NCBI GenBank assembly: GCA_012845835.1
Contig: JABAKD010000004.1
Coordinates: 12,029,022 to 12,093,021 of the forward strand
Direction: 5' to 3'
DNA length: 64,000 nt
DNA from: Undaria pinnatifida
Taxonomy: Eukaryota > Sar > Phaeophyceae > Laminariales > Alariaceae
Shown here: positions 4,297-53,097 of the stretch, one piece after another
How the letters are laid out: each line of letters opens with the position of its first letter
How positions within the stretch are numbered: position 1 is the first letter of the stretch
Program-made: the position numbers and the translations under genes
Notes under the pieces: generated by a model
The model's database searches: none
Told to the model about the DNA's origin: nothing
Seen by the model: only the letters and a program-made list of their open reading frames with translations

Positions 4297-4565
4297 TGTT
4301 AAGATACGGCCTCGAAAAGCCTGTAGGTATCCGAATTTAAGATCATTTGGATGGGTTTCGTATGATAAGGTTGGCGGTTTATATTCGGGGAAGTTAGGAA
4401 TTAAATCGGAGGCACGCGCCTCTGATCTCAGAAGCTATCCCGGGCTCTGGTGGAAACGAATAAAGCTACATCTCTACGAAGGAACGAAAGTGAGTACTCT
4501 CCGAGGACCTGCTCAATTGGCAGACCTGCAGGGGGCACTCTGTGTCCCCCACCTTTAATTTCACA
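4297..4565 (+). repeat. 5' LTR of element A
   Basis: This 269-bp LTR starts TGTTAAGATACGG and ends AATTTCACA. It matches 17346-17614 with six substitutions by my count (about 98% identity). It contains AATAAA at 4459-4464, a candidate polyadenylation signal, and a GC-rich inverted repeat just before it. Confidence 0.92.
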
Positions 4566-4585: not shown

Positions 4586-6624
4586 TATGCTATTGTGGCA
4601 GCGTTCTTCCAGTCTCTCCGATTTTTTTTTCGTAGCGATTTTGCCCACAACCCCTGTTCCTTCTCGGGTGGCTTCTCAATGGAGGGAGCGCCCTTCCTCC
4701 TACAACGGCGACCACGACAGCAGTGAGATGGCAGGGGCCCCTCCTGTTGGTCGCCGCGCACGTACCACACGGACGACACCTTCCAAGTACGTGCGGACGG
4801 CTCTGCTCTGCGGAGCACACTCCTCGTCTCGAATTTTGGTCCCTCCTGTTGGTTGCTGGGCACGCACCACACAGAGGACACTTTCCGAGTACGGGCGGAC
4901 GACACTGCTCTTCGGAGCACACCCCTCGTCCCGGCCTTTGGCCGCATCAGTTCACCGCCAGCTGGTCATAGACCACTCCGCAGTGGAACTGCCCGAGCCC
5001 CACCCATGTGGGCTTGTTTGCTCCGCGCTCTGCTAGCATGTTGCACAGCACATATCCGCGAGTTGCCAGCACAAGCCCCAAGATCGGCCATCGACTCGTA
5101 CTTTTTTTTCGCGCTTTGGGGCTCGGAGGCATATGGACGACATGCCACGGACAAGCATACTGGAATCAACCCTTCGAATGACCTTCGAAGGGGACTTCGC
5201 TCGCTGAGAGAGCCCATCGCCCAGCACATCCTTTGCTGTCGGAGCCAGGCCGCCCTTCGCGGGACCCCCTTGGACTACGGGCACCGTGCTCTAGGAGCTC
5301 ATGTCGGGGCTCCTTCATTGTGATCTACCCGGGAAGGAACAGGCGGTGCTCGTGGAATGGGCTTTTTCGTTTGGCGAATTTTCCAGTACACGCGTTATCG
5401 TATGGGTTTCAGTACATACGATCCGTCTTGTGCGTCGAACAAACAGCTGCCCCATTTCTGCCGAAATTAGTACAAGCTACAAATTTGACGCACCTCGGAC
5501 CCCTGTCCGATCTTTCTCGATCAACAGCGTTCCACTACTGCTGTGCGTCGCGTAGCTTCAACCACCATCATTTTTGCAGAGGTACCAACTACAGTGCAGC
5601 ACAATGGGCTCGCTGTCAATGCCTGCCATATACCGCCGGATTCTCTGCTGTAGAAGTCACTGTACTGCAGCCAAGCCGCCTACTTTGCTCCTCCTGCCCA
5701 TCCACCACATAGCTCGACCCTTCACTGCCCAGCGTGCACAGTTACAGCACCGCAGCTCTGACACCCCCCACTGCTGTGCGAGTGGTCCTTGCAAGTTCGA
5801 TTCAAGAGTTTTTTTTTTTCGTCCTGGCCCCCCCGTGACTAGAACTTGAACCTAGTGAACGCTGAAACTCTGTGCTGGCTTTTTGGGCAAGACTGTTGGT
5901 GTGCGCGATGCACTATATTCTCCCATTCATGGGTACGCGGGGACTATAATACCACCTTCTGTGTATGCACAGCTGTGACCGTGCGGCACTCCGCACTGCT
6001 GGCAACGTAACTGTCCCTTTATCGGTGGGAGTGGGTACGGATTTTTTTTTTTCAGCTGTCCGGGCGTTAGGCCGTCTTCCTGCCGGTACATGTGCTGCCC
6101 TTCACGATATTGCTAGGGTCTACGCTGGATTTTTTTTTTTTTTTTTCTTCTTCTCTGCACATGTTCGGACAGCTACTGCCCGTTACAAAGCGCTTACTAC
6201 ACAGTTCGTGGAGATACTGCGCTTCACAGTTTTTACTAGTGCAGTGGAGAGCAGCCCGTTTGATGCGGTACCTTTGGGGGCAAACAGCCTTTCTATTCGA
6301 CTGTGGGCGTGCACATTTTTCTACAGCTGGTGTTGGTACTACACTACCCATCTTGGTGCGGTTGAAATTGCCGTTACCTGTGAACACAGCAGTGATACTG
6401 CAGCAATCAGCACTACTGTAGGCGCGACCGTCCCTCTTCAGCGCGGTCGGGGGAAACTGCCTTGTTTGGGGGGGGTTATTCTGCCCGTTTTTATACGGTT
6501 GGCTGCGCGATCCTTCACTGTGCTACCCCCCCCCCCCTGTCAGCGTGTTGGGTGACCTTTCACTGTGCTCCCCCGACCCAGGCTACGGTAGGGGGGTCCC
6601 TTTTGGGGCCTTCAATTTCAGTGG

Positions 6625-6839: not shown

Positions 6840-8095
6840 TCCCCCCCTACACTACACCTAGGGTAAATGCTGCCCGTTTTGGTGCGATGAATGTCAGCGT
6901 GTTGGGCGATCTTACACTGTGCTTCCACCCCTACACTACACCTAGGGTAAATGCTGCCTGTTTTGGTGCGACGAGTGTCAGCGTGTTGGGTGACCTTTCA
7001 CTGTGCTCCCCCCCTACACTACACCTAGGGTAAATGCTGCCCGTTTTGGTGCGATGAGTGCTAGCGTGTTGGGCGATCTTACACTGTGCTTCCACCCCTA
7101 CACTTCACCTAGGGTAAATGCTGCCTGTTTTGGTGCGACGAGTGTCAAGCGCGTTGGGTGACCTTTCACTGTGCTCCCCCCCTACACTACACCTAGGGTA
7201 AATGCTGCCCGTTTTGGTGCGATGAATGTCAGCGTGTTGGGCGATCTTACACTGTGCTTCCACCCCTAAACTACACCTAGGTTAAATGCTGCCTGTTTTG
7301 GTGCGACGAGTGTCAGCGTGTTGGGTGACTTTCACTGTGCTCCCCCCCTACACTACACCTAGGGCAAATGCTGCCCGTTTTGGTGCGATGAGTGTCAGCG
7401 TGTTGGGCGATCTTACACTGTGCTTCCACCTCTACACTACACCTAGGGTATAGGCTGCCTGTTTTGGTGCGACGAGTGTCAGCGTGTTGGGCGATCTTAC
7501 ACTGTGCTTCCACCCCTACACTACACCTAGGGTAAATGCTGCCTGTTTTGGTGCGATGAGTGTCAGCGTGTGGGTGACCTTTCACTGTGCTCCCCCCCTA
7601 CACTACACCTAGGGCAAATGCTGCCCGTTTTGGTGCGATGAGTGTCAGCGTGTTGGGCGATCTTACACTGTGCTTCCACCCTCACACTACACCTAGAGTA
7701 AATGCTGCCTGTTTTGGTGCAATGAGTGTCAGCGTGTTGGGCGACCCTTCACTGTGCTCCCCCCCTACACTACACCTAGGGTAAATGCTGCCCGTTTTGG
7801 TGCGATGAGCGTCGGCGTGTTGGGCGAACCTTTACTGTGATAACCCCTACACTACACCTAGGGTAAATGCTGCCTGTTTTGGTGCGATGAGTGTCGGCGT
7901 GTTGGGCGACCCTTCACTGTGTTACCCCCCACGCTACACCTAGGTTAAACGCTGCCTGTTTTGGTGCGATGAGCGTCGGCGTGTTGGGCGAACCTTTATT
8001 GTGACAACCCCTACACTACACCTAGGGTAGAGGCTGCCTGTTTTGGTCCGATGAGCGTGGGCGTTTTGGGCGACGCTTTCCTGTGCTACCTCCCC
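6840..8095 (+). repeat. 83-84 bp tandem repeat array in the leader of LTR element A
   Basis: About fifteen imperfect copies of a unit containing CTACACTACACCTAGGG, TAAATGCTGCC, GTTTTGGTGCGATGAG, GTGTTGGGCGA and TACACTGTGC plus a C-tract. Starts seen at 6847, 6931 and 7014 give the period. Copies become more diverged toward 8095. A last partial unit (CACTACACCTAGG) sits immediately before the gag start at 8504. Copy B has a shorter, more diverged array at about 42340-43080. Confidence 0.9.
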
Positions 8096-8503
8096 CCGCC
8101 TAGGTTGAATGATGCCTGTTTAAGTGCGATGGCTGCAGACGTACCCTTACTGTGTTGCACCCCCTGTACTGCGGTTAGGGTCAGTGCTGCCCAGTTTTGG
8201 CTCCTTGTACTGCGGTTCGTGCGGGCGTTACCCATATACCCTACGGTCAGACTGGGCGCTGCTCTTATGTTGCGGTTATGATGATTGGTACCTTGTTACT
8301 GCTGTACTCCTCTTATACGGCTAGTTGACGTGGCTGCTACCATCACTGAGGCTGGACGGAGTCAAGGCCCATATTGTTGCTGTTTGCTGAAACACAGATA
8401 TACCGCTACTTGGAGCAGGAACACCACAACAATTTATCTGTCTCCATAGCTTCTTCACGCGTCGTTCCTACCCCCCCCCCCCCCCCTTCACTACACCTAG
8501 GCA

Positions 8504-10588
8504 CCATGTCCACCAGTGACGATGGGGGCTACTCGGGGCTGGCTGAGGTCTTCCACGCACCCCAACCTGGATGCCCACGAGACAGGGAGAGCTCGCTTGA
8601 GATGCCGCGACTCGAGACGGGGGGAACCACCGGTGGCGGGTTCCGGTGACGAGACAGAAGACGGAGCACCATACCTCCACCCGTTCCCACCAACCAAGCG
8701 GGTCGATTCGCTGGTTCGCGCTGAGAAGAAGACGGACCAACCCCCACCGGACTCGGGGGCGTCTCGACGCCAGCTCTGGCCAGCCCCGGGGGAGCGCCAC
8801 CAGCTGCCCCCCCCGCGCTCGACAGGGCACCACCGCCGCCACCTGGGCTCTCCGCGCTCGACAGAGCGCCACCCCCAGAGCTCCCGGGACCGGGACGCCC
8901 ATGCCGCCCCCTTGGACTTGGCATATCCAGCGGCGCGGGCCCAGCGGGTGCTCGACGACGCCAACCAGAAAATAGCACGCCGACGTCGGTTTGACGAAGA
9001 TATCGAGCAGGCGAAGACCGCTGCGCGCGAGTCGTCCCTGGTTGCGAAGAGGGCGCAACAAGCCCTCGCTCAATCAGTTGCGTCGGCTGCGGCGGGAGCT
9101 AACGCGGCCCCCTTGCCTTCGTCGCGCCCGCAGGGTGTCGCATGCCAGCGACCACGACCCGGGAACGACGCCTTCTTCAAGGGCATCGTCGCGTGCATGG
9201 CGTCTGCACCGCGGGTAGACTTCTCCTCAGCGTTGGCGACCCGCGGTGGTGGAAACGGCCTGCGCCCTCCTCCCGTCAGAGAGGCCGGCGTCGCGGCAAG
9301 CGGACGTCCTCAATGGAAGCGGCCTGGGCTCGCGTGGATTGTACGCCCTATGCTAGACAGACGAGAGCCGCCCCGACCCTTGCCCTCGTCAAGGCCCTGC
9401 TGATAGCCCGCGACGAGGACCCCGACCCTGTCTTTTGGCCGGACCCCGGAGGAAGAGTTGGCAGAACGAAACCGGGAAAAATGTCGCGACAGTCGCGACC
9501 GCGGGGACCGCAACCGTGGGGGTGGCGGCAAAAATATTGAGGGTGGCGACCACCATCACCGCCGCGGGGGTGACAGCGCATCGGGTGCTAGTGTGCCTGA
9601 GGGCGCCGCCGAGGGGGCAACTTCGGTCCAACAACCGGGGCAGTTGGCCGCCGCTCTGGCAGAGGAATGGCGCGAGAGGACGTTTAGCGTGGGACGGCTC
9701 GTCAACCTCCTCCCGCTCGTCTTCGTCCTCCAGCACGGACCACAGCGAGGTGGTCGTGGTAGCAGGCAAAAAGTGTCAAGAGCCATGGCAGGAGGAGCAT
9801 CTGCCTGAGGCTTTCACCCTCCTGTTGCGTCTGCTGATCACGCACTTCGATGGGGTTGACACGGAGGAGGGCTACACTAAGTTGCATACTTTTGGAATGT
9901 GTAACGGCATGCCTTTTTCTGATTTCAGTGGAGTTTCGCGTACTTATGCCGACCGCTACGGGGAGTGAGCGTGGTTTGTCTCCGGGAACGGATGTGGTGT
10001 TGGAGGTGGTTCGGGTGGCGGCGAATGAGCAATTTCCGGCTCTCCTGCCTGCGTTGTACCCTGGTTCGAAGGCAACAAACCCGCGGCCATACGCCTCGTT
10101 GGATGCTATGTGGCGGGCTTTTAGTGACTAATAAGACACCTGCCGTCAACGGCGAAACATTTTTTTCTCTCCCTGTTTCTTCGACGGGAGCGCGGTCATG
10201 CGCCCTGTCGGGGCCCCGGCCCGCAGATCATGGGCGCGGCCAGGGCCGAGTGCCGTCCCAGTCGCTTTCGTGGCAGACGGGATCGAGCCATCATTCAACT
10301 GTCATACCCATCAATGATTCATCTGACCCTTGGCTTGACCACACATCGAACTGCTGGCCACTAGAAGAGCATCATTATGCAGAAGGTTTCGCCGTTAAGG
10401 CCTCGTTTAAGACAGACGACCCTCCCCTTTGGAGCGGCCTCCTTTCACCTCGCGCTAATGCCCTCCGAGACAACTGCCACGAAGACAACCATTCCTCCAA
10501 GCATTGTAGGCATCCTTTAATTACTGCGAGTGGCTGCTTGAACCCTGAACTTGGCCAACTTGGCGACGATGACGCACACCGACGTTGA
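8504..10588 (+). pseudogene. gag: Gag polyprotein of LTR element A, frameshifted
   Basis: Gag would form the virus-like particle that packages element RNA. The start is chosen at ATG 8504 because copy B has the same beginning (MSTS followed by GYSG and AEVFHAPQPGCPRD). A proline-rich region follows, then a helical stretch around 8940-9100 (ARAQRVLDDANQKIARRRRF). The capsid-like region at about 9800-10131 contains EEGYTKLHTFGMCNGMPF and PGTDVVLEVVRVAANEQF and continues into 10140-10588. The zinc-knuckle region near 10470-10512 retains C-x4-H-x4-C (CHEDNHSSKHC) but has lost the first cysteine present in copy B. Several frameshifts break the protein, so this copy is probably non-functional. Confidence 0.8.
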
Positions 10589-11881
10589 CAAACACGCATG
10601 GTCTACTACCGCCGAGACGACAAATCTTTTCGCCCGAACAACCACAAGAAGAATCGTCGCCATCTTTCAGGATCAGGGCCAGGTAGACTGTCACAACGAT
10701 GCCACATAGACGTCGGATCACCATGGTGATATCCTGCGCTCGCCCGCCTCTTCTGCCCCCGCTCCCGCTTCTCGAATGCGCTTTGGAGCCGCCCACAACC
10801 CGGGCGAAAATAAATTTGCGCGCCAACCTGGCACATTCCGTAACGGCAATCGACAGCTCGACGGCGGTACGGCACCGTCAACACTGTCGGGGGGTACCTA
10901 TTTTGGTTTCAGAAGATGCTCGTGTTCTGTTGCTAGCCTGTCCAGTAATGCAGCACAGATTGCCTCTGTCAAGAGCCCACGGGCTCCTACGCCGTCTGCG
11001 GACGATTCTCACGGCGTAGTACCGGCGGCGGAAACTAGCGCTTCAAGCGTGGTTTCCTCCAGCCAGGTAATTTTTTTTCTTTTCTTTCTTTCTTTTTCGA
11101 CGGCGAGAACGCGCGCTTTCAGCGACGTTCCCCTCGGTCATGGTCTGAGTTCGGCAACGGGAACCGCGCTTCCAGCGCCGTTTCCCTCAGCCGCGGCATA
11201 AACTCAGCAATGGGGGTACGCGCTCCAAACGCCGCCCCCATCAACCATGGCACGGGAGCCTACGCTTTGCGCGCTCCCCCTCTAGGTACGCGCCGCGCAA
11301 CAATATAGCTGCAGCGACGGCGCGTCGCCTTTTTACGCGTATGTGTGCTTCCCCCCCTCTCCCTGACCAGGCGGTGGCGGTCGGTTTGAGGTGTGGGACG
11401 GTCGACCCTCGAAACACTTTTTCTGACCACGAGGTGGCGGTCGATTTGAGGTGTGGGAAGGCCAACACTAAAACACCGAGATCTTTTGCGAGGCTCGATC
11501 CGGTGTTTGCTCGCGATAAGAGCAGGCGCTCTGTCCTTTTTTCCATCAAGGAGGAGTCGACAAGATTAGCTACCTCGTCTCCCTTCTCCAAGAGACATGA
11601 CGGAAGAGAGCCTCCTCGGGTAAAAATATTATTGCCTTGCCCGAGCCCCGCTCCAGAAGACGCCCACAGGGTTTACGGGCCCTGCTTCGTCTTTTAACAC
11701 GCTAACCCACGTGTTTCAGGCTACGTCTGCCCCAGTGGCACAGGAAGAAGATCCGACACTGCGCGACGGGCCAGTGGTGACTCCACGGCCTCCAGTCTGA
11801 TCAGCTGGACGCTATTCCCGTAATTTTACGGAAGAATCGCGCCTCTCGTCAAGCAGAAACAGCTCAGAACCCCTGCCCCTT
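10589..11881 (+). other. Gag C-terminal / spacer region of element A, decayed
   Basis: Short overlapping frames occur in all phases and have counterparts on the minus strand in copy B (about 38770-40100). Basic, Arg/His-rich peptides (YYRRDDKSFRPNNHKKNRR near 10600) follow the zinc-knuckle region and probably belong to Gag. No enzyme domain was recognised. Confidence 0.45.
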
Positions 11882-12250
11882 CGGGTGCAGTTAGAGCAGT
11901 TTTCTTGCGATTATACGCCAAAGAGCGAAGAGGCCACGGCGCAAGCAACCGTGGGTTCGGACTCGCGTCGTGCTCCCGAGGCCTGGTGTTCCTGAGGGGG
12001 ACACTACAGGCCCAAAGAGCCGAGGACTGGTGTTCCCAGAGGGGGACATTGCAGACCCAAATGCCCAACGAGGCTACCGACGGGTTGGCACCGTCGGTTT
12101 TGGCCATTTTTCGGGTGCAGTTAGAGCGTATTCTCGCGCTTTTCCGCCAACGAGCGGAAAAAGACCAGAGGGGAAATACCACGGGTTCGTATTCGCGTCG
12201 TGCTCCCGAGGCCTGATATTCCTGGACGGGGACATTGCAGGCCCAAATTT
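11882..12250 (+). repeat. 229-bp direct repeat upstream of the NADAR domain (about 1.6 units)
   Basis: GGGTGCAGTTAGAGC recurs at 11882 and 12111, giving a 229-bp period. Each unit also carries a CGTCGTGCTCCCGAGGCCTG block. Copy B has three units (anchors near 38287, 38518 and 38747). The stretch probably encodes a variable-length linker between Gag and NADAR, with phrases such as GTLQAQRAEDWCSQ. Confidence 0.75.
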
Positions 12251-12287
12251 CAACACGGATTTTGACCCTTCTCTCGAATACTCCACA

Positions 12288-12750
12288 GCCAAAGTGGTGT
12301 TATTCTGGCAGCCCCCATCCTATTTCCCACCGTGGTCTCCCTCGTCGTTTGCCGTGGACGACGTACCATATTCTTGCGCGGAGCAGTACATGATGGCCGA
12401 AAAGACCAAGTTTTTGCAAGACCATCGAGCAGTGGGGCTCATTATGTCGTCGCCTCGTCCAAGCACACGCAAACGCATCGGTCGAGGCGTGCACAACTTT
12501 GACTCCGCTGTTGGGGACAGGGAGAAGCAAAACGCCGTGTCACCTGGCACCTACGCCAAATTCACGCAGAATCCAGCCATAAAAAAAAAATCACCTTTTG
12601 AGCTCTGACAACAAGCTTCTGGCTGTATCCAGCCCTCTCAACCCAGTGTGGGGCATGGGTCTCCGGGCGGATGGTCCCAGGGCCAACAACCCATGCCAGG
12701 GGGGAGGAAAAACTTGCTCGGTGAGGCACTTTCTGCCGTTCGCGCAGCTA
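12288..12750 (+). pseudogene. NADAR (YbiA-like) domain inside LTR element A, frameshifted
   Basis: The encoded protein matches NADAR/DUF1768 proteins in block order: a start with aromatic residues (VLFWQPPSYFPPWSPSSF), VDDVPYSCAEQYMMAEK (the family E-x-Y and K motif), a GRGVHNFDSAV segment, TYAKFTQNPAI, LLAVSSPLNPVWGMGLR (the W-G-x-G block) and finally KNLLGEALSAVR (the G/K-N-L-L-G-x-A-L helix). Known relatives are N-glycosidases acting on phosphoribosyl riboflavin intermediates or on ADP-ribosylated guanosine. Here a run of ten A at 12581-12590 (six in copy B) shifts the frame, and a second shift precedes KNLLGEAL. The position between gag and pol suggests it was part of the polyprotein. The domain call is strong; the role in the element is inference. 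Confidence 0.8.
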
Positions 12751-12928
12751 TTTGCGACAATGAGACCGGGTCGGCGCACCCGGCCTCCCCTAGTCGGTTC
12801 CGCACCTGCACTGCGAGTGCACGAACCAAGAAATCTCGTCCGCGCCGCAACCGGACCGTTCACAGCGGCCAGCGCTCGCAAAGCTTCCCCTTCGGCGTTT
12901 CCGACCTATTTCTCGGGCGCGTTGGCCA

Positions 12929-13159
12929 ATGAAAAGCCGTGAAGTTGTGGAGATAGCTTCTAGCGTCGGCCCTGACCTTGCGATGTCAGAACACTGCCCC
13001 TGTTTCGTCGAGGGTACTGTGACGCTGGACGACGTTTCGTTCACTATGAAAATCGCGTATATCAGTCGAGCAACGCTCGACTCGGAGAGGCACTCGACTC
13101 CTCTAGATTTGGGGACCGGCAGCATTGCTTGGGTTCCCAAACGCCTCCGAGGATACTGA
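12929..13159 (+). pseudogene. Possible degenerate retropepsin / linker of element A
   Basis: A 76-residue frame lies where the aspartic protease of Ty3-type elements is expected. It contains EGTVTLDDVSFTMKIAYISR and LDLGTGSIAWVPKRLRGY. The second phrase is reminiscent of, but not equal to, the D-[ST]-G catalytic motif. Copy B encodes a very similar stretch (about 37393 down to 37255), so it is a real conserved part of the element. Identification as protease rests on position and weak resemblance only. Confidence 0.4.
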
Positions 13160-13645: not shown

Positions 13646-14051
13646 CACCTCTACCGCGTTTCACGATTTTCGCACACACGAGCCACGTATAAGGATTGAC
13701 GGCCTTTCTGTTTCCCCGGGGAGATTCGTCGCTCGTGTTTCTGCCTGCGTCGCCACTACCGATGGCTGTACCGGCCGCGGGTCGATTTCACCTGCCGCCG
13801 ACACTGTTTTCGCTTCGGTTTATGCCATACCCATCGAGGGCGGCACGGGCTCCGCAGAAGCCCTGGCTGCAGCGACGCCCATCGCACAGCCGACTTATCT
13901 ATCCCGGAGTTCTTTACAGGAGACGGCCCCTGCCGCGACCACCGGTTCGACTGTGTCCGTCTCCGCCATGCTTGGCACTCCAGCCCCTCCGTCGTCGACG
14001 ACGCGCCGACGAACAGCGATAACAACGGGTAATGCACCCCCGCTGTAGATT

Positions 14052-16541
14052 ATGGATTCGGGCCCGGCGGGGCCCCTCGGCCGTCTTGCGGACGAAGTAC
14101 AACCCCGTCGCGAGTTCCACGGCCGCAGCCGACCCCGTCGCCGCCGCGACCCCTGCTCTTGTCGACTCGCCGGTCTGCACGGTGCCACTACCGTCCGACC
14201 GCGACCACGCAGAGCCTATATGGGAACTCCTTTCTTATGGCTCACGCCTTCTCCTGGTGGCACGCCGACCGCATATACTATGGCGGATGCCCTTCGCAAC
14301 GCTGCTGAATTGCGTTTCGCTGATTCCGTCGCACGTTACTCACATGGCGATTGGAAGCGAGAGCAGCACGCTGAGCCGACGTGCCACGCCATGATGCGTT
14401 ACGTTTCTATCGGCCGGCCATCGGTCCTGCCGCCCGACTTTTTGGCGTGCTACCTCTCGCACAAGCGTCCCTCCCTCTCAGACATCCAGGAGCTGGCGGG
14501 TAAGGGTCGACTACATACAACCGACGACGACTTTGTCCTACTCGTCCGTAACCCGACACTCCCGCCAACAAGCTCTGACAAACCGAACTCTGTGGGGCGA
14601 GCTGCTTGCTTGCTAAACGACGAGCCAGTTCGCATCTACGTTCCCCTGCTCATGCGCCCTTGGATCATGCAAGCTTGCCACTCGACGGCCTCCTGCCACC
14701 TTGGCACCACGCGCACGTTGCGCATGCTGGAGCGTTTTTATTGGTGGAATGGCATGAGTGTGTGCACCCGGTGGTGGCTTCGCCACTGCTTGAAGTGCCA
14801 AGCGCGGAAAACCACACGGCTGACTGTCCGCTGGCCCATCATCACAATGCCTCTGCCGGAAGGTCCAGGTATCGCCGTCAGTGTTGACTACTTCGGCCCC
14901 CTTCCGGTCACACCACGAGGCAACACCTACATCCTGCTGTTCACCGATCGCTTCAGTCGTCGGGCCGACATGTTCCCCGTCACTGCCGCTGAGTTCACCG
15001 CGGAAGGCACAGCCAATATCCTGGTGAACCAATACATCCCCTTGTGGGGGTGCCCGCGCGTCATACTCTCGGACAACGGACTGCAGTTCTTCTCCAAGCT
15101 TTCACAAGCTGTATATCAGCTGTTAGGTGTCCACAAGCTTGCTACAAGCTCCTACCATCCCAACTGTAACGGGGGCGTTGAGAGGGTAAATCACACCATG
15201 GCACAAATGCTGGCTATGGTCGTCAACGAGCGACAAGACGACTGGGACTTGCATCTGCCCCACGTCGAATTTGCTTACAACAACTCTGTCAGCGCGGCGA
15301 CGGGTTTGGCGCCCAACGAGGTCCACATGGGCAGACTCCCACGGCTCCCCCTGACGATTTTCGACCGCAAAGGTGTCGTGGGACACCAGAGTCTGGCCCG
15401 TGACCACCTGGCCTATTACGATTTGGCCACCGACCGGCAAAAGCGCGCGAACGACATTGTCCGCGCACACCACGCCCTCACCGTTTCCCGTGTTAACCGC
15501 AGAAACTCCGTCCTCGCCGACGCGCTGCGTCCAGCACCTAACTTCACTGTGGGTGGTTGGCCATGGGTATACAATTCTGCCTCTACCATCCGCCAGGGTG
15601 TGAAGGCGAATACCGACGCCAAGGTACTAAAGGCCAAACTCGCGCTTAACTGGACGGGCCCATACAAGGTCCTGGCCGTCGGTCCCTGCTCCGCCGCCGA
15701 GACCCCGGACGGCTCGCCGCTCGGGAGCAACTTCCTTTATTTGGATCTCCCTTCCGACCTGCCTGGTTCGGACGCTCGTCGGCGTGTGGCCATCGAGCGC
15801 TGCAAACCCTGTGCCAACCCCCACGACAGCGGGGACATGCCCAAATACCTACCGGCGGGGCTGACACAGTATGTGCTCAACAAATTTTCCAAGAAGTCCC
15901 CGCCGTACCACGTCACTCAAGACGACGTTTCGACTCCCCTCCAACGGCTGGAGGTGGAGCAGATCACTGGTCATCAGTCGGTACGGGGGCGAGGTGGCGT
16001 CATCGCGGTGCTATACAAGACGCATTGGGCGGGACTCTCCGAACCGTCCTGGGAGCGGGAAATGGACCTTCACCTCTCCCGCTCCCACATCTTGCGTTAT
16101 TGGGCCGGAACCCCGGACCAGCACCGCCAAACCAACCGCCTTTACCGCCGAATACGGATCGGGGCGGCACAGCGTGAGCTCTCCCGCAACAACGGGGAAC
16201 GTTTCCTAGCGCCGGGCTACGCCTGTGTTCCCCGCACCGATTGGCTCCGTCGCTACCACGACACCGTACTTCCTAAGGGAGCCCACTTTTGGTACAAGGG
16301 AGACGATGGTTTATGGTGGCTAGGAAAAATCAGCGCGAGCACTACCGAGGACAAGGTATACCTGGTCCGCTTTCTGGACGACCCGGGGCCGATTAAACTC
16401 CCTCTTCCCCCGGCGCGCTACACGACTTCAACGGGAGCCGTACGAAGCTCTTGGTGCTTGCAAGTTCACATCGCCAGTGCGTTTCCTCGGGGAATCCAAC
16501 GCAACGTAGACGAATCTCGAGGCGCGGCCGTGGCCAGTTGA
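14052..16541 (+). CDS. pol: Integrase with chromodomain and C-terminal Tudor-like domain (pol, element A)
   Basis: This would insert the cDNA into chromatin. The 829-residue frame is open. The zinc-binding H2C2 motif is H210, H216, C246, C249. The catalytic triad is D279 (SVDYFGP), D341 (LSDNG) and E377 (GVERVNH), with the expected 35-residue D-to-E gap. A chromodomain at about 630-683 (LEVEQITGHQS, then YKTHWAGLSEPSWERE) probably targets particular histone marks. A further beta-rich segment at about 745-810 (FWYKGDDGLWWLGKI, VRFLDDPGPIKL) looks like a Tudor/SH3-type fold, a weaker call. The same frame is open upstream from 13386, separated only by a TAG at 14046-14048, so the listed start need not be the natural polyprotein start. 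RT and most of RNase H are missing upstream. Confidence 0.9.
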   Translation: MDSGPAGPLGRLADEVQPRREFHGRSRPRRRRDPCSCRLAGLHGATTVRPRPRRAYMGTPFLWLTPSPGGTPTAYTMADALRNAAELRFADSVARYSHGDWKREQHAEPTCHAMMRYVSIGRPSVLPPDFLACYLSHKRPSLSDIQELAGKGRLHTTDDDFVLLVRNPTLPPTSSDKPNSVGRAACLLNDEPVRIYVPLLMRPWIMQACHSTASCHLGTTRTLRMLERFYWWNGMSVCTRWWLRHCLKCQARKTTRLTVRWPIITMPLPEGPGIAVSVDYFGPLPVTPRGNTYILLFTDRFSRRADMFPVTAAEFTAEGTANILVNQYIPLWGCPRVILSDNGLQFFSKLSQAVYQLLGVHKLATSSYHPNCNGGVERVNHTMAQMLAMVVNERQDDWDLHLPHVEFAYNNSVSAATGLAPNEVHMGRLPRLPLTIFDRKGVVGHQSLARDHLAYYDLATDRQKRANDIVRAHHALTVSRVNRRNSVLADALRPAPNFTVGGWPWVYNSASTIRQGVKANTDAKVLKAKLALNWTGPYKVLAVGPCSAAETPDGSPLGSNFLYLDLPSDLPGSDARRRVAIERCKPCANPHDSGDMPKYLPAGLTQYVLNKFSKKSPPYHVTQDDVSTPLQRLEVEQITGHQSVRGRGGVIAVLYKTHWAGLSEPSWEREMDLHLSRSHILRYWAGTPDQHRQTNRLYRRIRIGAAQRELSRNNGERFLAPGYACVPRTDWLRRYHDTVLPKGAHFWYKGDDGLWWLGKISASTTEDKVYLVRFLDDPGPIKLPLPPARYTTSTGAVRSSWCLQVHIASAFPRGIQRNVDESRGAAVAS

Positions 16542-17345
16542 CTTCCAAGCCACCACCGCTTCTCGATAGTTCTTCATTTTTCTGAGGTATGAGTTTTGCG
16601 TCTTTGTCTTTGGGTCGTTCGTAGTGTCCTGAGGGTCTCCATCGAGTTTTGGGGCGGTTATTTCCTTTTTTTTTCTGTCCTGCCGAACCCCCTGCTCAGT
16701 GCCGGGTCAGGGTTCGGGTAACACGCCGCTATCTGAGGCGCAGGGCTGTCGCCGTTTTGTCGTTGTTCAATTTCGCCCTGCCGACGCCCCCCTCAGCCCA
16801 GAGCCGGGGGGCGACCAGTGTACGGGTCTGTGTGTCATTTTTTATGTTTTGTGTGTTGTATTTGTCCTGCTTTGTTTTTTTCGTCTAAACACTTCCTCCC
16901 CTAGCGGGGCTGAAGGTGTTGCCACCTTCCATCCCGGGTATTTGTCGTTTCCTCGGCTAACCCCCCGCCTTGCCGATGGCCCGCGGGAGGTTTTTCGCAT
17001 GACTTCTCCCTTGTGTTAGCGTCTGTGTTCCCCTCCATATCGACGAGGGCTCGCCTCGCCATAGTACCTTTTTCCGTGGTTGGTTTGCCGTAGAGCCTTT
17101 CCTGCCCCCCCCGCCACACCGGCGGCATGCGGCAGGTTTTTGATGGGTGACTATTGCCTTGTTGTAGGGTCTTCGGTTCTTTCTACTGCTTTTCTTCGCG
17201 TGTTCCTGGCTTCATAGCCAGACGGTTAGAGGTGTGGGAGTGGGTTTTGAGGAGCCGCATCTTCGACTCATGGTTTAGTTCGTAGAACCGGAGTTTCCCC
17301 GAATCTCCCATATTTCTGCATATGCGACTCATCAGGGTGGGCTAG
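16542..17345 (+). other. 3' untranslated region of element A with polypurine tract
   Basis: No conserved coding potential was seen. The purine-rich AGGGTGGG just before the 3' LTR (about 17334-17342) is the candidate polypurine tract that primes plus-strand DNA synthesis. Confidence 0.55.
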
Positions 17346-17614
17346 TGTTAAGATACGGCCTCGAAAGGCCTGTAGGTATCCGAATTTGAGATCATTTGGA
17401 TGGGTTTCGTATGATAAGGTTGGCGGTTTATATTCGGGGAAGTTAGGAATTAGATCGGAGGCACGCGCCTCCGATCTCAGAAGCTATCCCGGGCTCTGGT
17501 GGAAACGAATAAAGCTACATCTCTACGAAGGAACGAAAGTGAGTACTCTCCGAGGACCTGCTCAATTGGCAGACCTGCAGCGGGCACTCTGTGTCCCCCA
17601 CCATTAATTTCACA
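17346..17614 (+). repeat. 3' LTR of element A
   Basis: This 269-bp copy matches the 5' LTR. It has AATAAA at 17508-17513 and a perfect 10-bp inverted repeat with a 4-nt loop at 17453-17476 (arms GATCGGAGGC and GCCTCCGATC). Confidence 0.92.
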
Positions 17615-18309
17615 ATATATTATCGTTTCACATTAGATCACGAAGCGTGATTTCAAGCGCTTCAACACAGTATTTATGATTGATTGCAAACTTCATCAAA
17701 TATCATCAAGTCGCATCTCCTGATGAGTTCGGCACGCTGAGAGTCTCCTTTAACGTGGCAACCAGCACCAGAAAGAACATTGTCGTTTAGGGGTGGCTTA
17801 AACATCGGATTGGCAGTCCAACCGCCAGGAAGCTGGAGAGCGGCAATGCCAGTAGAAGCAACAATCAACGCCACTTTACCCTGACCTCTCAAACGGGCGG
17901 CTATCACCATTCCCGTGAATGTTTTACCTGTACCGGCCGGCGTGTCCATCATGAAAGGTCGTGGAAGGTTGTTCGTCACTACATCAACGACAGAGTATCG
18001 TAAACACTGCGTACGCTGTTCTGTAGTAAGAGGTGGTTCGTGAGTATCTGAGTACAGCGTTTCGCCGTCTGGTTTGAAAGCAGTTAGCATCCGTTGATAC
18101 TCAGTTTGCCGATGACTAGCTTCAGGGAGATCGTCTTGTTTGTTGTTATTGCCGTGCGGTTGCAGTTTAAGGTCAATGATGCGTGAGGCCTCGTCGATGG
18201 CGGCATCTCTATCTAATCTGAACAGAAAGTCTTCAATTAGAGAGTCCTGATAATCTGACCTGACCTCGAGGGTAAGAGTGACCAAACGTCGATGCAGTTG
18301 ATGGGGCAC
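17615..18309 (-). pseudogene. Helitron PIF1-like helicase, N-terminal half
   Basis: The minus-strand frame 18309-17674 has Walker A (MDTPAGTGKTFTG), motif Ia (VALIVASTGIAALQLPGG), TANPMFKPPLN, and Walker B (LMIFDEV). Just past it, another frame encodes CVEALEITLRDLM, the region after Walker B in Helitron helicases. The gene then breaks at the right LTR of element A and resumes at 4296. In Helitrons this helicase is fused to a HUH Rep protein and unwinds DNA for rolling-circle transposition. Confidence 0.88.
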
Positions 18310-18324
18310 GTGGAAGACGGCGGC

Positions 18325-22100: not shown

Positions 22101-23350
22101 CGGTGGGAGGGGGGAGGGGGGGGAGGGGGGACGTCCTGCCCAAGAGACTGAAGTCTGGGTCTGGCCATCATCGTCTTAAAGTTTGTGGACCTTCCAATGG
22201 CCGTCACAAGATAGCCTAAGACCGCCCTGACTTTTTCGCTTTGTTGCGCTCTCTCCCCAGTGCCATTGATGCACTTGATACCCTCTATGAGTGCAATGCC
22301 GTCTTGTTCAGTTCGTAGGGTCTGCTACTATGACACTTTTTCTCTTTTCTTTTCCGTGCTTCCTCTTCTTGTCTTGTCTTTTCGTTTATATCCTATTTCG
22401 CTTTCGTTTCCTTCCTTTCATTTCCTTTCCTTTCTCGTCTTTCTGTGATTTGTTTCTTCTTTCCCAATTGACTTGAGTCTGACGTGCGTATGCATAGTGA
22501 TGGGTAACACGCGTAATATGTACGTGGTAGTCTTTCCTGGGTGGTAAGCGGTATAGTCGTTTCGCCGGGCGCGAGTAGTGAGATGTATGCGCCAGTATGG
22601 ACCTGGCATATCGTAGGCTGACTCCCGATGTCACTTTTTACATGTTTTCTGGCAGAGGCATGATGAATTGCGTCAGCTGAAACATATGCGTGTACCACAG
22701 TTGGTTTGTTTGCGTTTTTTTTTCCCTAGGGTATTCCTCAGCTCCAGAGTGACTGGAGCCTATCCTGTGACCAAGGATGTGATTAATCTATGCGAGTTAA
22801 TGTGAGCACAACAACAACAACAACAACAACATGCTGTTAGCCTTAGGAACGAGATTTACCGACCAGAAAATGTGGCATGATCAAATTGATGAAATGTTGC
22901 CTAAGCGCAACTTTCAAGAGACCGAAACTCACACAGGATTTCGTACCCCAGATTAAATTCAATATATAATAGGTTTTTAAGCCGGATTTCGTAGCTCCTC
23001 ACACAAAACAAATTGAACCTCCACACTGCGCCCAAACCTGTAAAACGTGAAATAAACGATGCATTCTACCCGTTGTACGTAGACCATTGTTTTGGTGATC
23101 CGTGCGGCACTGAACGGGCGCGAAACCCATCGAAATTAGCACTTTACAATCAGTTGTTTCGTTGATTTTGGCGGAGTTGTTCACTTGGAGCTGAAGCTTT
23201 TCTTGAACCGGATCTCCAGAAGGAGGATCTAAAAACTTATGAAAATTTGAAAAAAATCAAAAGGTACTAGAGAAAGTTAGCCTGTTGTTTATGGTGGCTA
23301 CAGATACGTTTTTTTCGTTTTATTTGCTCCCTTATTTCCCTACGAACCGG
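22101..23350. other. Non-coding flank with pyrimidine-rich tract and (CAA)n
   Basis: G-rich at about 22100-22135, T/C-rich at about 22320-22465, and a (CAA)n microsatellite at 22807-22830. No coding region is supported. Confidence 0.6.
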
Positions 23351-23620
23351 CCTTATTATGCCTCATTATGCCTTATTATGCCTTATTATGCCTTATTATG
23401 CCTTATTATGCCTTATTATGCCTTATTATGCCTTATTATGCCTTATTATGCCTTATTATGCCTTATTATGCCTTATTATGCCTTATTATGCCTTATTATG
23501 CCTTATTATGCCTTATTATGCCTTATTATTCCTTATTATGCCTTATTATGCCTTATTATGCCTTATTATGCCTTATTATGCCTTATTATGCCTTATTATG
23601 CCTTATTATGCCTTATTATG
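23351..23620 (+). repeat. 10-bp minisatellite CCTTATTATG, 27 units
   Basis: 270 bp of contiguous CCTTATTATG units in perfect register, with only two variant units seen (CCTCATTATG second, and CCTTATTATT around 23521). Open frames through it encode PYYALLCLIM-type repeats in all phases and are not genes. Confidence 0.97.
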
Positions 23621-23777
23621 CCGGTATCTTCTTCCTCTTTTTCGTGTTGGTTTTGACCGAAAAAAGCAGTTGTTGTCTCCTTCGTGTTGTTTAGTCCGTG
23701 CAACAGGTATCTGTTCCGCTTCGGCGTGTATGGTGTTCCTCTGGCAAAATGTACATACATGTACCTGGGGTAAAGTG

Positions 23778-37004: not shown

Positions 37005-37290
37005 AGGGGAGCCGTCTGATGAGATCAATCGCCTCCTGGGTACGTGTGAACTCTCTCCCAAGAGGCATGTTCGTCTGTTTCCTTTGTTGGGACTCCATCT
37101 TCTTCTTTTTTTTCTTCTTTTTCCTGCAGAAGGCATTCGTCTCGCCACTGAACGTAGTTGGAGGGAAAGGGAGAAGGGGATTGCTGGGTTGGTGTGGTGG
37201 CCGATGTGGTAGTTGGTGGTGGTGGCTGAGGATGTGCGGACCTTTGTTCCCCACAGTACCCTCGGAGGCGCTTGAGAGCCCAAACAATGC
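37005..37290. repeat. Segment shared with 48555-48800, abutting the truncated end of LTR copy B
   Basis: Both segments carry GATCAATCGCCTCCTGGGTA, GTTGGGACTCCATCTT, a T/C-rich tract, CTGCAGAAGGCATTCGTCTC and GCCACTGAACG. In B the family homology stops near here and this sequence begins. The origin of the segment is unknown. Confidence 0.7.
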
Positions 37291-37393
37291 TGCCGGTCCC
37301 CAAATCTAGACGAGTCCAGTGCCACCCCGAGTCGAGCGCTGCTCGACTGGTATACGCGCTTTCGATAGTGAACGAAACGTCGTCCAGCGTCAC
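37255..37393 (-). pseudogene. Protease-position segment of copy B
   Basis: MTLDDVSFTIESAYTSRA and LDLGTGSIVWALKRLRGY closely match copy A (12929-13159). Conservation between copies supports a real protein segment; retropepsin identity remains weak because no clear D-[ST]-G motif is present. Confidence 0.45.
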
Positions 37394-37639
37394 AGTACCC
37401 CCGACGAAACAGGGGCCGTCTTCTGACTGCTAAAGGTCAGGACCGACGACGGAAGCTATCACCAAAACTTCACGGCTTTTAGTTGGCCAACGCGCCCGAG
37501 AAATGGGCTGGAAACTCTGAAGGGGAAGCTTTGCGAGCGCCGGTCGCTGTTAACGGCCAGGCCGCGGTGCGGACGAGATTTCTTGGTTCTTGCAGTCGCA
37601 GGGCAGGCGCGGAACCGACTAGGGGAGGCCGGGTGCGCC

Positions 37640-38113
37640 GACCAGGTCTCACTGTCGCGAATAGCTTCGCGAACGGCAGAAAGTGCCCCACCGAGCTAAT
37701 TTTTGCTCTCCACTGGCATGGGTTGATGGCCCTGGAATCATCTTCCCGGCGACCAATGCCCCGCACTGGGATTAGAGGGCTGGATTTAGCCAAACGCTTG
37801 CTGTCAGAGCTCAAAAGGCGATTTTTTATGGTTGAATTCTGCGTGAAATTGGCGTAGGTGCCAGATATCACGGCATGTTGCTTCTCCCTGTCTCCAACAC
37901 CGGAGTCAAAGTTGCGCATGTCTCGACGATGCGTTCGCGTGTGCTTGGACTAGGCGACGACGTGATGAGCTCCACTGCTCGATGGTCTTGGAAGCGCCTG
38001 GTCTTTTCGGCCATCATGTACTGCTCTGCGCAAGAATATGGCACGTCGTCCACGACAAACGACGAAGGGGACCACCGTGGAAAATAGGATGGGAGCTGCC
38101 AGAACAACACCAC
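37640..38113 (-). pseudogene. NADAR (YbiA-like) domain of copy B, frameshifted
   Basis: Reading down from 38113: VLFWQLPSYFPRWSPSSF, VDDVPYSCAEQYMMAEKTRR, then a frameshift near 37920, MRNFDSGVGDREK, TYANFTQNSTIKNRLLSS and a PVRGIG block, then in another frame SKN, stop, LGGALSAVREAIRDSE. Compared with copy A, the run of A after TQNxxI is six rather than ten, keeping the frame through KNRLLSS. The family W-G-x-G tryptophan is arginine here. Copies A and B break in different places, so the ancestral domain was intact. Confidence 0.78.
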
Positions 38114-38139
38114 TTTTTGTCTGTGGTGTATTCGAGAGA

Positions 38140-45374: not shown

Positions 45375-45644
45375 TGTAAGGGTATTTGGGCGGGGACACA
45401 GAGTGTTCCCTGCAGGTCTGCCAATTGAGCAGGTCCTCGGAGAGTACTCAATTTCTTAGCCTTCGTAGAGACGTTGCTTTATTCGATTCCACCAGAGCCC
45501 CGGATGGCTTCCGAGATCAGAGGCACGTGCCTCCGATCTATTTCCTGACTATACTGAATATAAAACGCCAACCTTATCATACGAAACCCATGAAAAGTAT
45601 CTCAATACGGATAATTACAGGCTTTTCGAGGTCGTATCTCAACA
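45375..45644 (-). repeat. 5' LTR of copy B
   Basis: The minus strand begins TGTTGAGATACGACCTCG and aligns throughout with A's LTRs, with many more differences. It keeps the inverted repeat (GATCGGAGGCACGTGCCTC) and the polyadenylation-signal region. It lies directly beside a CTTGAGGAGCTC repeat copy. Confidence 0.88.
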
Positions 45645-45652
45645 CTCGTCGC

Positions 45653-49027: not shown

Positions 49028-50675
49028 ACACCTGTTTCACCCTGACAATAAATATAATAATACCATCACGTGGGGCATGCAATATCCCTTGTATCACCCC
49101 TGACATATATTTGATGTTAAGTGTTAGCAAGGTAGCCTAGACGCACACGAAGTATTCAAAGAGCAGCAACAATAGTCGCGGCTAGCATTAGTAGCAGCAG
49201 TGGGCAGCAGACTTGCTATTCTAGGGTTACCCTTTGGATCTACATTACACGCCAGTGTGGAACGCAGTGCAATAACAGAGTAGGCTTTGACGGTTACGGT
49301 TACAAGGACAATTTGCGGGACGGGTATATCCCTAAAACATACCTGGTACCAGGCATATTTTTGAGGCGCGTACGTTTCTCGAAGAAACTCGCGGTCATAA
49401 TAGCCTGGTGGATATCGAAGCGTAGCACTGACTGCATTTGACAAGACGACAGCTTACGAAGTAAAGGTAGACTTTGCTGGACTGGACGACAGTTCAGTAG
49501 TAGCTCTAGACAGACGTTGTGACAGTTCTCGTCGTGGAGTCAGCGCTAGTCGGCGCAAATGTCCTACCTCCCACCCGATTACTTCTGCTATTGTTGATCG
49601 TATGGTAGGCTACATACAGTAGTCGCTAGCCTACATATGAAAGTCACGTGGCTGTGTACAGGCTAGTAGTTATATTACGAGCACCTTCTTTTTGGGGCTG
49701 CGAGCGTAGCGGGTGACACGTGCTTTGGTACCATAAAGGTGGAACGTTTTTTTGTCGAGGCTATAAACATGATGAGGAGCTAAGAAAACACTTTACCTCA
49801 AAACCGGTTGAATAACAGTGCAGACTGAAAGCTTTTTCGTGATGAACACACCCATGGCCTAGGCACCCCAGAAAGGAATACTGTTGCATCTGCGGTAGTC
49901 CAAGACAGTATATCCTTCCGACGATTTTGAGTCGCGTCATTTAGAGAATAGTTTAGCCAAGAAGTGGTACACCTCAATACTGATAATACCTCAGAGCTCT
50001 ATCGTACACGCGTCCCGGGTGGTATCCAAGACACGATGGTTACACGTGACTATCTCGGGAGGCTGATGGAGGCAGTGCTATGACCACTTCGTAGGATATT
50101 TTGGGAAATAGCTTGCGACATAACCCACACGTCATCGTCGAGACGGGTGACCATGTCTACAGACAAGTAACAAAACAGGTGGAGAGGTATACTACACGTC
50201 ACCGTCGAAATGCTTGACCATGTCCACAGACAGACAGGCAACAAAACAGGTGGAGAGGTATACTATCAATATGTGTATATTCTCTTTCGAATGGTTCAGG
50301 GGGTAGTACCAATAGTGCTACATCACCACCACATGATAGCAACGTGGGACTGTATGACATCACACGACCGCTTGTGACTACAAGTGTACTTCGTGAGGGT
50401 GTGAGGATGATACCTAAAGGGCCAATAATTCAACTCCCCAGCGCACAGTACGCCTTGTAACAGTATTCTCTAACGTGCGTTACGGGATATCGTATCGTAT
50501 CCCATTGTATGCCCCGATAGGGATACGAGTATTCTCTGGACTTTTTTTCATGGCTGACGTGGCTCCTCATATGGTCGGCGTGTTACTGTGAGATCAAGAC
50601 TGCGGTGTGGGGGATGTTACGATGATGTTATGATATATGTTATGATATACCCCGGCTTCTATACCACCGGATCTG
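49028..50675. other. Non-coding region with one dispersed repeat and a short tandem duplication
   Basis: The repeat copy is at 49775-49990. A tandem duplication with AACAAAACAGGTGGAGAGG lies at about 50150-50265. No gene is supported. Confidence 0.6.
49775..49990 (+). repeat. Dispersed CCCATGGCCTAGG-type repeat copy
   Basis: Carries GAGGAGCTAAG, CAAAACCGGTTGAA, CCCATGGCCTAGGCACC, TTCCGACGATTTTGAGTC and TTTAGCCAAGAAGTGGTAC. Confidence 0.7.
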
Positions 50676-51205
50676 AGGTATCATATCATATCACAGCATA
50701 TCATATCGTAACATATCATATCATATCATATCATATCATAGCATATCATATCATAACATACCATATCATATCATATCATACCATATCTTATCATATCATA
50801 CCATATCACATCATATCATATCATAGCATATCATATCATATATATCACATCATATCATATCATATCATATCATATCATATCATAGAACATCATATCGTAA
50901 CATATCATATCATATCATATCATAGCATATAATATCATAGCATACCATATCATATCATATCATACCATATCTTATCATATCATATCATATCACATCATAT
51001 CATGTCATAGCATATCATATCATATATATCACATCATATTATATCATATCATATCATATCATAGCATATCATATCATGTCATATCATACCATACCGTATC
51101 AAATCATATCATATCATATCATATAATACCATATCATATCACATATCATATCATATCATGTCGTATTATATCATACCATATCATACTATCATACTATCAT
51201 ACTCG
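50676..51205 (+). repeat. (CATAT)n pentanucleotide satellite
   Basis: About 530 bp of imperfect CATAT units with scattered variants (CACAT, CATAG, CGTAA). Frames through it encode Tyr-His-Ile-Ser-type repeats and are not genes. Confidence 0.95.
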
Positions 51206-53097
51206 CCCGAGTGACTCTGTGTACCTCAATAAAATAAACAAGTTAGGCGATTGTTTGGCGCAGCGTGGACTCAACGATTCCGTTAGGGGTTCATATCGAA
51301 AATTTAAAAACAGCCCGAAATAAGACAGCCTATGGCCGCAAGGAACAGGGAGGTGGGCCACTCTATTACTCTCAAGCGATTGACCCCGAGCCACTGCAAA
51401 ACTAAACTTGAAAAAAAACACAACATAACAACATAACAGCCCTTATGGTAGCCCTTATGATACCGTAGCTTTTGTCGTGAGTAGGTCGTGTCTTTCAATG
51501 GCTACGAGCCGCGAATGGCTACGCTAAATGAGTGCTCTTTTAATATGGTGAGACTATGTATCCGCCATCCGACAATGTTCGATCAATCCATACTATTTTC
51601 AAGACATTACTGTTTGATGGTAGAGGGAGATGGTATCGCTGGGATCGTTCGAAAAACAAAGCTTATACCATTACTGATAGGTAGGCCATGGGATTTTTTT
51701 GTAAAGTTGTTCGTCGGGGCGGTCCAGGACGAGCACTTACTTTCAGTTTTGGCGAATTCGGTTTTGGGTCAAAACTACAGAGCGCCTCAAGCGAGAAGCC
51801 TCGGGAAACGATTGCTGATGTGTGATGATGTGTCCTGAATTGTGCTAATAATATGTGGTGATGTCCTATCCTCTGTCGTCGTAGCACGCGTCTACCCTCG
51901 GAACGAAAGAGTAACCCGTGAACTACCAATTTAATTGTGGGGGAGGTAGATAGTGCTGTGACTGTTTCGTTGGTTGTTATCGTACTTGGGTATACTGCAA
52001 CCACTGCAGAGGTACAAAGCCAGCCCCAACACATCCTTCACAGTAGTCAAACTCGCGCGCGTAACTGAGCAAGCCGATGGGGGTAGAGGTCTGGCAATTT
52101 GAGAGTCTGCTGGGTATTGAGTATTTAGTGAGTGGCCAGGTCAGCGGTAGGGGTATATCACGTTTGCGGCAAATCAATTTCGAAATGACGGCGCTCCTCA
52201 AGTGATGACAAAGAACTACGCCTGATAGTCGGAACACCGTTGGCACTTTGCACTATACTCGTCGTGGTTGCGGGTTGAACTCCATTTATTTTCTCAAAGT
52301 TAAAGTCCACTGATTGTGTAAGGTCTAGACAGACTAAAGGTCCTCAAGCGAGAAGCCCGAGGAAAAACCTACGAGGAAGCAATAAGCGTAGACCTGTGCC
52401 ATTGTGTGCGCTCTGGTCTGACCAGATAACAGTCGAACAAAGCGACAACAAAAACACGTACTGGAATCATAGCGTGCGTGCTGTCATTTTGTCGTTATAA
52501 GTTAATGATGTTTTCAGATGTTACTCGCCACCAGATAGCGTCGAAAATCATTCAGAGCGCGCCCAGTTGTTGATGGATTAGAGCGTGGTATTAGCCCGTC
52601 TGACAACAAATTGGCAAAATAAAAAAAGGTCAACCAATTGCCTACCCGAACTAAGCCTTATTTTATAACACTCTCCCACTCTGAATTGGCGGGATCGCAG
52701 GACAAAAAAGGTGGGCGCGTGAATACCAACGGGGTTTCATTTTCTGGAGACACCGCCCTGGGAGGGTATTTCTTCAAGTTCAACATGTCATCATGAGGGA
52801 AGGTCGTCAAAGCTCATGTTAGGTGGATGGTGATACTCGAAAATACCGAAAATACGACCCGGAAACTCATGGTCCTGCCGTCGACGCCCTTTGTTGAGGT
52901 ATCAGAGGGTATTATCAATAGTCCGCGTGACCAATGGTAAAAGGTTAACCAATTGCCTACCCAAACTACGTAAGCCTTATGCAAATAGCAGATGGATATA
53001 CACGAGATTCTTCTCTCATCTGCCAAAAACAGCTTTTGTACCATCGACCCTTCTTCTTCCATGTCACGACAATTTCTGCAAATTACTCCCTCCGACC
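51206..53097. other. Non-coding region with a minus-strand dispersed repeat
   Basis: The repeat copy is at 51600-51800. A separate block AAGCGAGAAGCC recurs at about 51790 and 52350. No gene is supported. Confidence 0.55.
51600..51800 (-). repeat. Dispersed CCCATGGCCTAGG-type repeat, minus-strand copy
   Basis: The minus strand carries CTTGAGGCGCTCTGTAG, CCCAAAACCG and AATCCCATGGCCTACCTATC in order. Confidence 0.65.

Follow-up and report, generated by a model that had tools for sequence, protein, structure and literature searches.

What is a NADAR enzyme domain doing inside the polyprotein of a long terminal repeat (LTR) retrotransposon? The question is raised by a 64,000-nucleotide stretch of the brown alga Undaria pinnatifida (contig JABAKD010000004.1, positions 12,029,022 to 12,093,021; this whole stretch is called the window below), where two related copies, element A and copy B, hold the remains of such a domain on the plus and minus strands, respectively:

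About 12303 to 12750, plus strand: NADAR of element A, spread over three frames (Pfam PF08719)
37624 to 38119, minus strand: NADAR of copy B, also in three frames (tblastn, three pieces)

As a whole, at least three related Ty3/gypsy families of this host carry a predicted YbiA-subfamily NADAR towards the N-terminus of Pol, and its modelled fold and its residues suggest that most copies of the domain could still work as an enzyme. It is constrained in the lineage of the open copies, while change between the deleted copies A and B looks neutral.

In element A, PF08719 matched an unbroken frame piece (11895-12608, plus strand) at E=1.7e-18 and 67.9 bits, for a cut-off of 35.1. Profile positions 108-145 were then matched by the piece that follows (12583-12942), at a sub-threshold E=0.078, and the third gave no Pfam match. 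With the NADAR of an open copy as tblastn query, 12261-12788 of A was covered at 62.5% identity. A sequence-only reading of the window had seen a Ty3/gypsy-type LTR family with a NADAR in its body, which is borne out by these profile scores, by the LTR pair of A and by open relatives elsewhere in the genome.

These relatives were sought in the 511-Mb host genome (68 contigs), where the best 150 of 1454 candidates from a Pfam NADAR search were scored: all 150 lie above the cut-off, many of them in open frames of up to 2473 aa. Beyond short NADAR loci, the sequence sampled comprised one copy taken in two parts, 20 regions of 10 kb, another 20 of about 2 kb, five of 1.4 kb and, from a third-family copy, 9 kb. 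In one open copy of family I and one of family II, the domain order given by Pfam is NADAR, reverse transcriptase (RT), RNase H, H2C2 and rve, with NADAR matches of E=2.6e-50 (171.3 bits) and E=9e-49 (166.3 bits), respectively, and an rve match 0.4 bits below its own cut-off in both. The stretch LLDTGSPQ, seen by eye between NADAR and RT, is taken to be the protease motif, and CX2CX4HX4C in both gag frames is presumably a zinc knuckle. Thus, in the open relatives, the NADAR is not situated between gag and pol, as had been thought from the window, but lies towards the N-terminus of a single long Pol frame, ahead of the protease. At the other end of Pol, a Chromo match remains below cut-off (E=0.076 and 0.12; L015:8576-9697 and L025:8246-9457). 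It is followed in both loci by a Trp-rich stretch, in which one may see, by eye, another chromatin-reader-like module.

Between families I and II, identity is 81% in RT but 49% in NADAR. The third family (L046/L051), in which Gypsy-like gag, NADAR, protease and RT pieces were recognised by eye, has a NADAR of 45-48% identity to the other two. With their LTRs, zinc-knuckle gag and protease-RT-RNase H-integrase order, the elements fit Ty3/gypsy (Metaviridae).

Seen from the RT side, the best 150 of 1651 candidates of a genome-wide search were scored. A listed NADAR lies 1-4 kb upstream in 83 of these 150 places and in 42 of the 50 best, both being lower bounds, and in all 23 scored places with frames of at least 2100 aa (one frame being read through a TAG). 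Five of the 67 NADAR-less places were read (L052-L056) and proved deleted, truncated or without related upstream sequence: in L054 and L055 an LTR runs directly into pol shortly ahead of the protease, the two joins almost coinciding (L015 4473 and 4465), one place has an internal deletion across the NADAR, and in two others the 1.4 kb read contains nothing related upstream. The concern that most family copies might lack the segment is therefore answered by the long-frame places, but only in part by the scored set as a whole (at least 83/150). Two simpler explanations were discarded: a chance or pseudo-match is ruled out by the Pfam scores in the window and in the open copies, and an insertion into a single copy by the three families and the 23 of 23 long-frame places, so that the domain belongs to the family, as the sequence-only reading had it.

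The way in which this Pol frame is joined to gag was analysed in 22 long loci (L009, L011-L030 and L051), the site being aligned in 18. The gag frame is open over at least 758 aa in L015 and at least 847 aa in L025, and is followed by one TGA and then by Pol in the same frame:

L015:2276-2278 (family I) and L025:2543-2545 (family II): gag/pol TGA, just preceded by the peptide RQPGTFRT, common to both

This TGA is found at the gag/pol boundary of 14 out of 14 family I and 4 out of 4 family II loci with the site aligned, for which stop readthrough would be the simplest reading.

Concerning the protein itself, an AlphaFold2 model of the family I NADAR (predicted local distance difference test, pLDDT, 96.9; predicted template modelling score, pTM, 0.90) adopts a YbiA-like fold. 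Foldseek placed closest the oomycete NADAR with bound ADP-ribose (8bau; E=6.9e-12, TM 0.87/0.77), followed by E. coli YbiA (2b3w; E=1e-7), and returned nothing beyond these two at E ≤0.001. When 59 NADARs were aligned, two of these rows coming from the elements, seven residues showed no variation (E35, K42, R69, W79, E115, D120 and W123). By alignment, with a hand-counted offset of 2, E35, K42, E115, D120 and W123 are E43, K50, E125, D130 and W133 of the oomycete enzyme, the roles of which are given in PMC11543638. These five were counted in 41 element copies from elsewhere in the genome, the window copies being treated apart: E115, the subfamily-defining Glu, is kept in 41, D120 in 40, W123 in 39, and E35 and K42 in 38 each, and the five stand together in 33 of the 41 copies. 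Such a pattern also bears on the idea that the NADAR is a reader of ADP-ribose, which would steer the particle or the integration complex to ADP-ribosylated chromatin or breaks, catalysis being incidental. The ligand-contact residues are indeed conserved along with the catalytic ones, and the same Pol has the sub-threshold chromo-like tail. However, the catalytic E115 is better kept than the contact residues K42 and W123, and the NADAR lies at the opposite end of Pol from the integrase, which makes a reader quite improbable.

Selection on the NADAR was estimated by Nei-Gojobori counts as the ratio of nonsynonymous to synonymous change (dN/dS, omega), with bootstrap 95% intervals. Between L015 and the diverged copy L045, dS is 1.39 and dN 0.219, giving an omega of 0.16 (0.08-0.26), vs. 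1.07 (0.59-2.29) between A and B; L015 gives 0.31 against A and 0.35 against B. Pooled young copies yielded 0.47 in family I (12 copies) and 0.39 in family II (5 copies), both without intervals. The dN/dS check suggested at the outset thus came out below 1 in the best-resolved pair and in the pooled young copies, but not uniformly so in single copies (see below). The case for constraint would rest chiefly on L045, A and B as compared with family I, and on the active site conserved across families. Open copies under constraint stand here against deleted ones in neutral decay, a contrast by which genomes alone can tell whether selection is at work. It also bears on the possibility that the NADAR was picked up as a functionless passenger and persists only through the youth of the copies. 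Both window NADARs are dead, the 12 young family I copies are each only 1-4 NADAR substitutions away from L015, and an active-site residue is lost in 8 of the 41 copies. Against this, the omega of 0.16 was reached at a dS of 1.39, and E115 is present in every one of the 41 copies, across three families with NADARs only about 45-49% identical. We consider a mere passenger the least probable of the explanations weighed here, and very improbable in itself.

The two window copies, both of which are defective, show what becomes of the domain in a decaying subfamily. Their other features are the following:

4297 to 4565, plus strand: 5' LTR of element A, with TG...CA ends and 97.8% identity over 269 nt to the 3' LTR
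6840 to 8087, plus strand: leader tandem repeats of A, unit of about 84 bp, in the LTR-gag interval (repeat finding; blastn with L009)
8501 to 10851, plus strand: gag remnants of A in several frames (9686-10669 vs. L009 3142-4161, 79.7%)
10852 to 10854, plus strand: CGA codon of A at the site of the family I gag/pol TGA (by eye)
13040 to 13055, plus strand: internal deletion junction of A, the protease start being fused to RNase H (L015 4170-4232, then 6320-6449, matched)
14049 to 16541, plus strand: open integrase-region frame of A, 830 aa, with an H2C2 zinc finger, an rve core and, by eye, a chromo-like tail
17346 to 17614, plus strand: 3' LTR of A, pairing with 4297-4565
37355 to 37370, minus strand: protease/RT deletion junction of copy B, the same as in A (L015 4173-4236, then 6322-6460)
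45389 to 45646, minus strand: 5' LTR of copy B (match to A)

Element A has thus lost about 2.1 kb, including protease and RT, by a jump from L015 4232 to 6320. Its leader repeats are also present in the open copy L009 (blastn), and the gag frame that is broken in A is open in two other copies. The integrase-region frame matches PF17921 (E=1e-12) and, at 31 bits for a cut-off of 32.6, PF00665 (E=3.3e-7). Since 14743-17138 is 97.3% identical to the open copy L010 (blastn) but the NADAR region only about 77-78% identical to the same copy, A has the look of a mosaic. Its flanks, compared by eye, show no apparent target-site duplication. In copy B, only the 5' LTR was seen and no 3' LTR, the similarity to A stopping at 37228; at the gag/pol TGA site it carries, by alignment, CGA.

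In the NADAR of A, E115 has become Val, D120 Asn and W79 Gly, with E35, K42, R69 and W123 kept; in that of B, E115 has become Lys, D120 Ile, W123 Arg, W79 Gly and K65 Glu. Both copies keep E35 and K42, and both have lost E115. As the junction is the same (L015 4232-4236 to 6320-6322), it accounts for the absence of protease and RT from both, and they further have in common the change of the ligand-contact residue W79 to Gly. A loss of 1 nt, placed at NADAR nt 426 in A and nt 424 in B, is probably one event. Each copy also has a private break: in A, 4 nt are inserted, and in B, 1 nt is lost at NADAR nt 202. The breaks of the two copies had been described as independent, which holds for these private ones but not for the deletion, for W79 and, probably, for the 1-nt loss.

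What, then, would a Pol-borne NADAR do for an element that keeps it? NADARs strip ADP-ribose from guanosine in DNA (PMC11543638 and PMC11125620, as far as the available parts describe it) and reverse guanosine ADP-ribosylation on RNA (PMC11833690, likewise in part). From the computed presence, predicted fold, kept active site and constraint of the domain, we infer its activity, packaging, readthrough and substrate as follows. In families I and II, UGA readthrough would yield a small share of Gag-Pol that contains the NADAR, and this Gag-Pol would be carried into the particle, where the NADAR would sit beside the RT and its template. There, to go by the biochemistry of other NADARs, it may hydrolyse ADP-ribose from guanine in the element RNA or single-stranded cDNA, and the removal of blocks set by ADP-ribosyltransferases would let the RT copy its template. 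That the domain is such a guanine-ADP-ribose hydrolase, keeping the RNA/cDNA template of the element readable, is a proposal for which we see about equal chances of being right or wrong; the role on ADP-ribosylated RNA/cDNA suggested by the sequence-only reading is, by analogy, plausible. If the Pol NADAR were active in this way, it would point to ADP-ribosylation of retroelement RNA/cDNA as a host defence.

Several observations weigh against this proposal. In eight of the 41 copies at least one of the five active-site residues is gone; among them L022 has K42 changed to Asn despite a frame of 2365 aa, and the diverged copy L045, on which much of the constraint rests, itself has W123 changed to Arg. 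The losses are scattered over the eight copies, as expected from decay after insertion. Single copies compared with their family reference gave omega values from 0.10 to 1.52 (for copies with both kinds of change), and the intervals are mostly wide for the less diverged pairs; a scatter of this sort is expected if every copy drifted after insertion. The RNA behind the gag stop is not unusually structured (111 nt folded, z of -1.29 and -1.60). Since the deleted subfamily of A and B has the W79 change in both copies, an element can apparently do without a NADAR in cis. No host ADP-ribosyltransferase with element nucleic acid as its target was noticed in this genome, no search having been aimed at one. 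As for the published biochemistry, E. coli YbiA and the T4 phage NADAR are weaker on RNA than the E. coli C7 NADAR, according to the part of PMC11833690 available, and soluble ADP-ribose derivatives have also been proposed as targets of viral NADARs, in the accessible text of PMC9503650.

This last point leads to a second explanation, in which the target is a small molecule: by breaking down a signal or metabolite (ADP-ribose derivatives, whether cyclic or linear, or intermediates of the riboflavin pathway, as YbiA does), the NADAR would blunt a host alarm. The available text of PMC9503650 puts forward the soluble derivatives chiefly for phages and DNA viruses, and links DUF4326 to ADP-ribose processing, a domain that is joined to a NADAR in the predicted protein P0002 (see below). 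The same text, however, favours macromolecular targets for the NADARs of RNA-virus polyproteins, which are proposed there to counter host ADP-ribosylation, and a domain placed behind a stop, made in low amounts and held in a particle would be poorly located for a scavenger. We regard a small-molecule target as somewhat unlikely. A more general form, proposed for an Ectocarpus Gypsy and an oyster Tx1 long interspersed nuclear element (LINE) in the available part of PMC12477816, has the NADAR process the RNA intermediate of transposition in an unspecified manner. Its generality is such that it could hardly fail, de-ADP-ribosylation being one form of it, and taken as a separate explanation it appears very unlikely.

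Returning to the hydrolase proposal, a further question is whether retroelements acquired NADARs once or repeatedly. Among the matches listed (best 120 of 1081), the closest named relatives are Nannocystis NADARs (59-61% identity), followed by the Ectocarpus fasciculatus protein P0122 (56%), and many unnamed relatives stand at 75-92%. A tree of 87 rows places family I with P0122 and P0068, small predicted proteins from E. fasciculatus and eukprot, respectively (support 97/82), and then with the Nannocystis group (98/88); family II and the third family are placed elsewhere, away from family I. Approximately unbiased (AU) tests did not reject one clade for families I and II (p=0.207) or for all three (p=0.21), and the protease region beside the NADAR is also only about 41-60% identical between families. 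Because these tests allow one clade and the protease region has diverged as well, a replacement of the NADAR between families I and II is not claimed, despite 49% identity there against 81% in RT.

The case is different for P0001, a predicted NADAR-protease-RT-RNase H-integrase polyprotein of 1415 aa, which is 33% identical to family I in the RT region and 52% in the NADAR. A single NADAR clade of the three families plus P0001 was rejected (AU p=0.02, for a group chosen after the tree had been seen); one of family I and P0001 alone was not (p=0.144). The NADAR of P0001 was probably captured separately, which would make at least two captures likely. Two other predicted proteins were encountered. 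P0002 (3614 aa) has an OTU domain, a NADAR, DUF4326, a sub-threshold tyrosine-recombinase match and, by eye, a YTDD-like stretch; neither Pfam nor a sequence comparison with solved structures revealed an RT in it, and it may be a DIRS-like retroelement that carries a NADAR independently. In P0231 (249 aa), RNase H is fused directly to a NADAR. It is conceivable, but on the whole unlikely, and a little more so than a small-molecule target, that NADAR capture is a recurrent, convergent counter-defence, unrelated retroelements having taken NADARs independently to undo ADP-ribosylation of nucleic acids. If this is so, hosts would restrict retroelements by ADP-ribosylating RNA/cDNA, a form of defence not known so far.

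Outside the two copies, the window has a PIF1-like helicase fragment just beyond the 3' LTR of A (17677-18324, minus strand; E=1.4e-20), perhaps a Helitron remnant, and two tandem-repeat arrays with a 10-bp period (50634-51230 and 23280-23682). An Rfam scan of the window gave 0 matches.

The sequence-only reading knew of no described element with this arrangement, which was mistaken: in September 2025, Dinatale et al. (PMC12477816) reported from Ectocarpus a Gypsy lineage whose Pol has a YbiA-family NADAR at its N-terminus, and suggested, in the part available, the processing of RNA intermediates as its role. NADAR-bearing Gypsy elements are therefore a kind already known, of which those analysed here are a further member. 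Beyond that paper, no other report of a NADAR in a retroelement was recognised among the literature titles listed, and the available part of PMC5348765, on oomycete retrotransposons, does not mention NADAR.

Compared by its published description, as far as available, the Ectocarpus lineage Gypsy-12_Ec32 likewise has its NADAR at the N-terminal end of Pol and bacterial NADARs among its nearest relatives. The Ectocarpus match, the tree and the architecture shared with this lineage point by themselves to a brown alga as the host. The lineage has a C-terminal chromodomain; the Chromo match of the Undaria elements is sub-threshold. The Undaria elements differ by their three families with NADARs about 45-49% identical, their deleted derivatives, the selection measured on them, and, in two of the three families, the UGA that separates gag from pol within one frame; the available main text of PMC12477816 mentions no readthrough, frameshift or stop codon. 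The Tx1 LINE ORF1 of the Pacific oyster, described in the same source, also places a NADAR in a retroelement, but in a non-LTR element, in another protein and as a divergent domain. P0001 has the same domain order, NADAR first, with a far more distant RT than NADAR. The oomycete and E. coli structures share the fold and the active-site residues but were solved as separate proteins, outside retroelement polyproteins, and the polyproteins of animal RNA viruses (PMC9503650, in its accessible part) likewise embed a NADAR with a polymerase, though in RNA viruses and not in retroelements. To these systems, the present analysis adds the comparison of constraint with neutral decay, the gag-UGA-pol arrangement in two families and the probable separate capture in P0001.
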